Below, piece by piece: positions 49,045-49,993 of a DNA stretch of 64,000 nucleotides (positions are counted from its first letter, which is position 1; every line of letters begins with the position of its first letter). The stretch covers positions 166,824-230,823 of the forward strand of contig JAFDZP010000003.1 of NCBI GenBank assembly GCA_018266835.1. The letters are read 5' to 3'. Source of the DNA: Bacteroidota bacterium (GTDB lineage: Bacteria > Bacteroidota > Ignavibacteria > Tepidaquicellales > Tepidaquicellaceae). Both the position numbers and the translations under genes were made by a program. The notes below the pieces were generated by a model, which saw nothing but the letters and a program-made list of their open reading frames with translations, searched no databases and had not been told where the DNA came from.

Positions 49045-49553
49045 GTCATTTGTTAATTTATAAAAAATATTACTTATTTGTTTCAACTCACAATTTAAGT
49101 GAAAGGTTTCGTATTTGGGAGGAAGAAAGGAATGAATTTATGTCAAGAAGAATTTTATATTTTCTACCTATTAGTACTAACAGGAAACATTTTCTTTTTT
49201 TTGTATAATAATCTACTTAAATTAGGCAATGAGTTTGTGAAAGATTATTTTTCTGAATCCAGACTGAGATTAGCTCAGAATGTGACAATAATGTTACTTT
49301 ATTGGATCCCGAATCAAGTGCTGGATGACAATTTGATACTCTTATTTTGCAGGAATCCGTCAAAAATCCGTCAATTCAAATCAAATAAAATTTTGGGTAT
49401 TGTAAAAACAACATCGAGAGTGAAAATTCAGCAGAGGTTGCTAAACAGATTGGATGACTCAAAAGGGTACCCCGTCTTCACACGAATGACATGCCGAGTG
49501 TTTTACATTCCGAAGCTGGAGCGTCGGAGCGAGAGGCATGTATATAAATGAAA
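49045..49553. other. Intergenic region, about 500 bases, repeat-rich
   Basis: It holds an ACCTATTAGTAC dyad-like string (49166-49177), a TGGATCCCGAATCAAGTGCT segment of the kind found in dispersed repeats, and an element related to the 71-base repeats (49354-49432). A 150-codon plus-strand frame (49099-49551) is judged non-coding: it has no recognisable signal, biased composition, and runs through the repeat element. Confidence 0.5.
49354..49432. repeat. Element related to the 71-base intergenic repeat, copy 3
   Basis: TATTGTAAAAACAACA (49398-49413) and AAAATTCAGC (49423-49432) are in the same order as in the copies at 11381 and 15481. The TGACGGATTTT units are present in inverted orientation (AATCCGTCAAAAATCCGTCA, 49354-49373). 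It again lies upstream (about 300-390 bases) of a minus-strand lipoprotein gene. Confidence 0.45.
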
Positions 49554-49583
49554 AAAGGGACTCAATTTGCATTGAATCCCTTT
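49554..49583 (-). terminator. Terminator hairpin after the tRNA fragment
   Basis: AAAGGGA...TCCCTTT with CAAT/ATTG pairing inside. It follows the broken tRNA copy just as 49887-49912 follows the intact tRNA, and both are flanked by the same TATAAATGAAAAA string. Confidence 0.7.
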
Positions 49584-49587
49584 CGTA

Positions 49588-49635
49588 GTAGCGGGAACAG
49601 GACTTGAATTCGCCGCGGCGAATTATGAGCCCGAC
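49588..49635 (-). pseudogene. Broken copy of the initiator tRNA-Met (anticodon arm and 3' part)
   Basis: On the minus strand it has GTCGGGCTCATAA (49623-49635), identical to the anticodon arm of the intact tRNA, and TTCAAGTCCTGTTCCCGCTAC (49588-49608), identical to its T-loop/acceptor 3' part. Between them 14 bases of palindromic sequence replace the 15 bases of anticodon 3' stem, variable loop and T-stem. The 5' half of the tRNA is absent and is replaced by the GIY-YIG coding sequence. Confidence 0.85.
49607..49624. repeat. 18-bp perfect palindrome inside the tRNA fragment
   Basis: AATTCGCCGCGGCGAATT equals its own reverse complement and is far more G/C-rich than its surroundings. It fills the gap between the two retained tRNA pieces and ends in the stop codon of the nuclease gene. 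Confidence 0.85.
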
Positions 49636-49868
49636 AGTAACTTTTGCAATTCATCTCTTCCTTTACCTGTTTTATAATATTTTTCTTTTTTCATTGCTTC
49701 AGTTCGGCTTGAAAATTCTTCAAAATGAACCAATTTCCAATTTGTGCCTCGTTTTGTATAAAAGGATTTACCAGAATTGTGCTGAATTAATCTTTGCTCG
49801 AGGCTTGAAGTTTGGCCAGTATAAATATAGCCTTCTTCACTCTTGATATGGTATAAGAAAAACTTCAT
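49623..49868 (-). CDS. GIY-YIG nuclease-domain small protein inserted at the initiator tRNA
   Basis: 81 residues, a single stand-alone GIY-YIG domain of the YhbQ/UvrC-N-like class. The core strands are LYHI (5-8) and YTG (16-18). Arg26 lies in SSLEQRLIQHNSG with His30, and Glu62 in AMKKEKYYKTGKGRDEL is the likely metal-binding acid. The C-terminal Ser-Gly-Ser-stop is encoded by TCGGGCTCATAA, which is the anticodon arm of a second, broken tRNA-fMet copy. On the minus strand the gene starts 53 bases after the end of the intact tRNA, behind that tRNA's terminator. This suggests a mobile, tRNA-targeting nuclease rather than a housekeeping repair protein. Confidence 0.85.
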   Translation of the reverse strand: MKFFLYHIKSEEGYIYTGQTSSLEQRLIQHNSGKSFYTKRGTNWKLVHFEEFSSRTEAMKKEKYYKTGKGRDELQKLLSGS

Positions 49869-49886
49869 AGAAAACTTCTATAAATG

Positions 49887-49912
49887 AAAAACGGGTCTAT
49901 TGACCCGTTTTT
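49887..49912 (-). terminator. Terminator of the initiator tRNA gene
   Basis: A perfect 11-base stem AAAAACGGGTC/GACCCGTTTTT, 9 bases beyond the tRNA 3' end. Confidence 0.85.
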
Positions 49913-49920
49913 GCTTTTTG

Positions 49921-49993
49921 TAGCGGGAACAGGACTTGAACCTGTGACCTTCGGGTTATGAGCCCGACGAGCTACCAACTGCTCCATCCCGCG
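49921..49993 (-). tRNA. Initiator tRNA-Met (anticodon CAT)
   Basis: 73 bases, CCA not encoded. The minus strand reads CGCGGGA for the 5' acceptor, GGAGCAGTTGGTAGCTC for the D arm, TCGGG-CTCATAA-CCCGA for the anticodon arm and ACAGG-TTCAAGT-CCTGT for the T arm, ending TCCCGCT-A. Three consecutive G-C pairs in the anticodon stem and an unpaired 1-72 position (C against U) mark it as the initiator rather than an elongator. Confidence 0.95.

Follow-up and report, generated by a model that had tools for sequence, protein, structure and literature searches.

Anatomy of the initiator tRNA locus

How does the gene of a small nuclease come to lie between an intact initiator tRNA gene and a broken copy of that same tRNA? 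The arrangement occurs in a stretch of 64,000 nt, hereafter called the window, from a Bacteroidota bacterium (assembly GCA_018266835.1, contig JAFDZP010000003.1, positions 166,824-230,823 of the forward strand; GTDB lineage Bacteroidota; Ignavibacteria; Tepidaquicellales; Tepidaquicellaceae). The features of the locus are as follows.

49920..49993, minus strand: intact, putatively rebuilt, initiator tRNA-Met, anticodon CAT (ARAGORN; Rfam tRNA model, 65.9 bits)
49886..49908, minus strand: intrinsic terminator of this tRNA, ACGGGTC-AATA-GACCCGT followed by a T-run (hairpin 49908-49891)
49623..49868, minus strand: GIY-YIG nuclease gene, an ORF of 81 codons (PF01541, E 2e-15), with its 3' end inside the displaced tRNA copy
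49623..49635, minus strand: displaced tRNA copy, piece 1 (tRNA positions 26-38), 13/13 identical to the intact tRNA
49609..49622, minus strand: perfect palindrome TTCGCCGCGGCGAA of 14 nt, replacing tRNA positions 39-53; 18 bp with flanking bases (49607-49624)
49588..49608, minus strand: displaced tRNA copy, piece 2 (tRNA positions 54-74, the 3' end), 21/21 identical to the intact tRNA
49543..49580, minus strand: second terminator (49580-49551) and TTTTTTCATTTATA, following the displaced copy

This layout agrees base for base with the original prediction, made from the sequence alone, of an intact tRNA, a terminator, a repeated string, a GIY-YIG gene, a partial tRNA and a second terminator. On the minus strand, the string TTTTTCATTTATA lies between the first terminator and the nuclease ORF and recurs after the second terminator. 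The duplicated pieces, said to be 332-336 bases apart, are offset by 332, 333 and 336 nt, and the nuclease ORF does end Ser-Gly-Ser-stop within the anticodon arm of the copy. The match of piece 2 to the intact tRNA has a BLAST E value of 5e-8 when searched within ~1.5 kb. The predicted list of parts was thus sound; the palindrome, which it left unused, turned out to be a regular part.

In tRNA surveys made on extracted genome stretches, we found one initiator tRNA gene in the source genome, the second CAT tRNA being a different Met-type gene. An ETF-beta gene lies upstream of the initiator tRNA in divergent orientation. A 40-codon ORF at 49865-49987 overlaps the tRNA and runs into the start of the nuclease gene (ATGA); it is probably spurious and a likely source of mis-annotated N-termini in tRNA-linked GIY-YIG nucleases. 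In the downstream flank (49300-49541), pieces of 30-55 nt match other stretches of the same genome and are apparently dispersed repeats.

Filled and empty sites

The original prediction held that an element of about 330 bases had entered the tRNA gene and rebuilt it, leaving the displaced 3' part downstream. Filled and empty sites in genus g17 show insertion and restoration of this kind. In the empty genome G032, the native terminator AAAAAAAAGCCGCTAATTAGCGGC comes directly 3' of the initiator tRNA. In the filled genome G029, that same terminator comes after the displaced half, a new terminator ends the intact tRNA, and the insert is ~325 nt long. The downstream flank is native in the filled/empty pair, and the intact and displaced copies have identical tRNA halves. 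The intact tRNA of the filled/empty pair L206/L207 carries a new terminator, and by analogy the terminator at 49886..49908 in the window is probably carried by the element, which probably also supplied the 3' part of the intact tRNA. The segment 49543..49580 is presumed, on the same analogy, to be the original downstream flank of the tRNA.

A mirror form, seen in the same genus, involves the other end of the gene. The empty genome G038 has a single promoter region before the tRNA. The filled genomes G030 and G036 have, in this order, the old promoter region, a displaced 5' half, a palindrome, the nuclease gene, a second promoter region and the intact tRNA.

In the family of the window, the initiator tRNA is uninterrupted, with neither nuclease nor copy, in 23 other genomes, and in 20 of these it lies beside the same ETF-beta gene; the corresponding locus of a genus-mate is rearranged relative to the window. 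As had been expected of an element, nuclease-free relatives have an uninterrupted tRNA, no broken copy and no palindrome.

An apparently split initiator tRNA in the relatives G012 (L200/L205) and G018 (L201) reflects only scaffolding runs of N inside the gene; the element arrays may commonly cause assembly gaps and contig ends. Relative to the neighbouring alaS gene, the segment with the initiator tRNA is inverted in some species of one genus (L206-L207 versus L208-L210 and L213-L215).

Spread of the family and association with tRNA genes

Nuclease homologs occur in 97 of 148 relatives and in 90 of the 198 genomes sampled from the phylum. The original prediction suggested asking whether they sit between a tRNA and a partial copy of it, and most do. 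An intact tRNA lies within 600 nt at 105 of 131 homologous loci, on the same strand at 104 of them and with a median gap of 38 nt; random positions would give ~0.6%, an estimate based on 39 tRNAs in the 4.0 Mb of the source genome. Most of the loci without an intact tRNA at that distance end at contig edges. An extra partial copy of the neighbouring tRNA is present at 87 of the 104 same-strand loci. Outside the class, a tRNA is adjacent at 8 of 11 loci; the other three are a five-unit array, whose initiator tRNA was found further out, a locus at the start of a contig, and an unrelated long protein.

The element reading is largely supported, with corrections: the family is not confined to the initiator tRNA, it includes a mirror 5' form, and its arrays are common. 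The partner tRNAs comprise ~20 species. In the 3' form, the intact tRNA is followed by the nuclease, the palindrome and the displaced 3' half; the 5' form begins with the displaced 5' half and continues through palindrome and nuclease to the intact tRNA. At L130, an Asp locus, the displaced pieces upstream and downstream have one palindrome in common.

The source genome contains five further PF01541 places besides the window gene. Two are small single-domain genes adjoining tRNA-Ile(TAT) and tRNA-Pro(CGG), and the other three have no nearby tRNA. The Pro-linked gene lies ~200 nt downstream of its tRNA (L001 1224-1749, G000:C2 near 1267530); no displaced copy of that tRNA was detectable at this locus, which is perhaps an old, decayed insertion. 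Displaced partial copies accompany 4 of the 39 tRNA genes of this genome: Met and Ile have a nuclease as well, and Leu-TAA (3' form) and Ser-GCT (5' form) have none. Both nuclease-less copies keep a palindrome and resemble miniatures from which the nuclease was lost. At L174 1500-1704 (G000:C4 near 3238), tRNA-Leu(TAA) is followed by a unit of ~160 bp consisting of a terminator, a tRNA stub, the palindrome TCCCGCTAAAGCGGGA and the displaced 3' half, which looks non-autonomous. At L060/L230 (G000:C2 near 183041-183230), a copy of the first 28 nt of tRNA-Ser(GCT), ending in TTCGCCGCGGCGAA, precedes the tRNA.

A phage or plasmid vehicle was considered and rejected: searches gave no plasmid homolog and one weak phage match, and a profile pattern found no relative on viral contigs.

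The nuclease and its fidelity to a target

The PF01541 match covers residues 3-70 of the 81, and the protein is a bare single GIY-YIG domain with the catalytic Tyr, Tyr, Arg and Glu of the superfamily. Y6, Y16, R26, H30 and E62 are invariant among 113 homologs, and dN/dS ranges from 0.03 to 0.18 between close nuclease pairs. The comparison indicates that selection acts on the active site. The nearest relatives in the PDB are the UPF0213 proteins 1ywl (E 8e-7) and 1zg2 (E 4e-6), single-domain GIY-YIG proteins of the same size class; they differ in being stand-alone hypothetical proteins. None of the NCBIfam models matched the window protein above its cut-off. PADLOC matches were weak and covered only part of the domain, and we rejected a defence gene.

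The nucleases follow their tRNAs. In a tree of 113 sequences, one per locus, tRNA identity changes 33 times, as against a mean of 82.3 with shuffled labels and no value as low in 200 shuffles; the alignment has few columns, which makes single forks weak but not the clustering. The window protein groups with initiator-tRNA nucleases from other families, at a best identity of 56%. These patterns indicate that the nucleases spread horizontally while staying faithful to one target site.

The tRNA itself may bear traces of such a history. In the source genome, T-stem pair 49-65 of the initiator tRNA is A-U in both copies; in 24 other family genomes it is G49/C65. The A-U pair recurs at a Flavobacterium locus that bears the same type of element, and the DNA of that locus matches the window element over ~465 aligned positions. 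Together, the T-stem pair and the Flavobacterium match suggest that the tRNA half may have been imported.

Palindromes and tandem arrays

GC-rich palindromes are found in 97 of 142 displaced copies (68%), compared with 121 of 2840 same-locus control windows (4%) and 114 of 2840 shuffles. The pattern of the window palindrome, TTCGCCGNGGCGAA, occurs at 11 places in the source genome and the reversed control pattern at none. The position of the palindrome is specific to the lineage: 51|60 in Asp, 28|46 in Pro-CGG, and 37|48, 58|62 or 12|19 in the initiator-tRNA groups. Such a position would fit a cut site. Among ten Asp-type palindromes, 69 of 70 outer positions are paired, which 0 of 2000 shuffles reached. 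The co-variation of the arms implies that being a palindrome matters or is regenerated. The motif TTCGCCGCGGCGAA also occurs away from tRNAs, in the loops of larger inverted repeats of the same genome (L063, L235, L064 and L236), with arms CCTGACAG..CTGTCAGG and CCGTCCCAA..TTGGGACGG; these form a dispersed hairpin-in-hairpin repeat.

Tandem arrays of 2-5 units, each ~310-430 bp long, occupy many loci. In 13 of the 14 arrays whose units differ in completeness, the inner unit, next to the intact tRNA, is fuller than the outer, and four more arrays show this same polarity, although contig ends or stretches of N may have truncated some outer units. Since inner units are fuller, new units appear to enter beside the tRNA.

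A model of gene-restoring homing and its alternatives

With moderate confidence, and from sequence comparison, we propose that the window element is a gene-restoring homing element, with a break made by the nuclease, a displaced half marked by the palindrome, and growth into arrays. The GIY-YIG nuclease would break an element-free copy of the cognate tRNA gene, and the break would be repaired from an element-bearing chromosome, the two halves of the tRNA serving as homology arms. Repair would copy in the nuclease gene and a replacement tRNA half, together with a terminator in the 3' form or a promoter in the 5' form. The essential tRNA would be rebuilt and the host's own half pushed aside. With a palindrome in place of part of its sequence, the displaced half would be neither a tRNA nor a cut site. 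The rebuilt tRNA may occasionally be re-cut; with the displaced copy of the sister chromosome as template, repair would then add units beside the tRNA, producing tandem arrays whose outer units decay. Of this scheme, the comparisons establish the anatomy, the insertion that restores the tRNA, the fidelity to the target, the selection on the active site, and the arrays with their polarity; the break by the nuclease, its position, the use of the tRNA halves as homology arms, the re-cutting and the role of the palindrome are proposed.

Several points speak against homing. I-TevI and the known homing enzymes carry a specificity part; a bare GIY-YIG domain has no such domain, and site-specific cutting by it is not assured, which is the chief weakness of the model. 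The rebuilt tRNA would be expected to remain a target. Across the family, intact and displaced halves are nearly always identical, although an imported half should often differ, and gene conversion or local transfer must therefore be assumed. Finally, textbook homing does not need a palindrome.

It is possible, if doubtful, that the units constitute a separate mobile class. They would be palindrome-ended micro-elements carrying half a tRNA, with a nuclease acting on the element's own palindrome, nuclease-less miniatures, mirror 5' and 3' versions and ~20 tRNA species as hosts, and the choice of target would reside in the carried half. As for the action of the nuclease, an unlikely alternative retains mobility and gene restoration, and has the enzyme act not on the empty tRNA but on the palindrome in its hairpin or cruciform form. 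The cut would free or open the donor, and the target would be chosen only by homology of the carried half to the resident tRNA. The co-variation of the arms keeps this alternative in play. It also gains from the palindrome's place at the junction of element and displaced half, which is common to the 3' form, the 5' form and the nuclease-less mini-elements, and it suits a nuclease with no extra specificity domain, as homology alone would account for lineages that track a tRNA. However, about one third of the displaced copies have no clear palindrome, and its constant position per nuclease lineage with variable sequence, as in Asp, fits a replaced cut site. Templated mutation can also keep palindromes perfect.

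Plain tandem duplication is very improbable. A vertically inherited nuclease gene would have acquired partial tRNA copies by slippage or unequal crossing-over, with no mobility, as the arrays of identical units and the near-identity of intact and displaced halves might suggest. The empty sites largely refute this, as the native terminator or promoter is in place there in close relatives; the arrangement is moreover absent from the same syntenic tRNA in 23 genomes of the family, the nuclease tree follows tRNA identity across families, and there are two mirror forms. We consider it very unlikely that the nuclease has a host function in tRNA quality control, regulation or tRNA cleavage, is kept by its tRNA and has the broken copy as decoy or regulator: low dN/dS, an invariant active site and tRNA-specific lineages would suit such a function, but presence is patchy in both genome samples, with only one initiator-tRNA locus in the family of the window, copies decay, arrays form and any of ~20 tRNA species can be the partner. 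That the units are relics of a group I intron or of an island integrating at tRNAs, in which the nuclease survived, can practically be dismissed: genomic islands do leave att sites that resemble the displaced 3' tRNA copy, but the units carry no integrase gene and measure ~310-430 nt throughout, the 5' form carries a promoter, unlike islands, and, as regards an intron, the tRNA is uninterrupted by ARAGORN and the Rfam scan gave no intron family.

Relation to known systems and significance

The closest parallels to gene-restoring homing come from the mORFs of fungal mitochondria, in atp6 of Allomyces macrogynus and in atp6, atp9, cox2 and nad3 of Glomus (PMC3630166). There, a new C-terminus arrives with the endonuclease gene and the native one is displaced, and the Glomus atp9 case is a GIY-YIG enzyme (PMC3630166). 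Like the window element, mORFs insert in an essential gene, supply a replacement 3' end and displace the native 3' end downstream; the filled/empty pairs and the 23 empty genomes reveal the same combination of insertion in an essential gene, carried replacement end and displaced native end. However, mORFs reside in mitochondrial protein genes and encode larger enzymes, whereas the present family occupies tRNA genes of bacterial chromosomes with a bare nuclease of 80 residues, and adds a mirror 5' form with a promoter, palindromes and tandem arrays.

A second parallel is offered by the free-standing GIY-YIG homing endonucleases of T-even phages (PMC2988022, PMC13096335), enzymes that typically cut at a distance from their own gene. 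One of these phage enzymes, SegB, amplifies a tRNA-segB segment in tandem through short homology (PMC13096335). SegB is likewise a GIY-YIG nuclease beside tRNA genes, and the growth of arrays is alike. It is phage-borne, though, and lies between phage tRNA genes, none of which is rebuilt, whereas the window family rebuilds a chromosomal tRNA.

Islands and prophages that integrate at tRNA genes by tyrosine integrases share the tRNA site, the rebuilt 3' end, a displaced 3' copy at the far end and serial insertion. The present units differ in their size of ~330 bp, their 5' form and a break in tRNA loops or arms with a palindrome. They also have a nuclease rather than a recombinase: as predicted, it stands in place of an integrase and is the sole gene between the repeats, with no integrase flanked by att repeats. 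REP/RAYT systems, in which a HUH-type transposase spreads intergenic repeats, similarly tie small palindromes to a single-domain nuclease gene and include small nuclease-less copies, but the window family has a GIY-YIG enzyme at tRNA genes instead of a HUH-type enzyme at intergenic repeats.

In the open literature, which excludes subscription papers, we found no description of a bacterial tRNA-linked GIY-YIG element, and a survey of the GIY-YIG superfamily makes no mention of one (PMC1564403). By that measure, the bacterial chromosomal tRNA hosts, the minimal size, the 5' mirror form, the palindromes and the range of ~20 tRNA species are new.

The family explains many tandem repeats, assembly gaps and incomplete tRNA genes that lie next to tRNAs. 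It also makes testable how a bare GIY-YIG domain finds its site and how self-cutting is avoided, and it suggests small site-specific insertion tools. At ~330 bp, this selfish element is near the imaginable minimum, and it would enter a single-copy essential gene by bringing the repair part with it.
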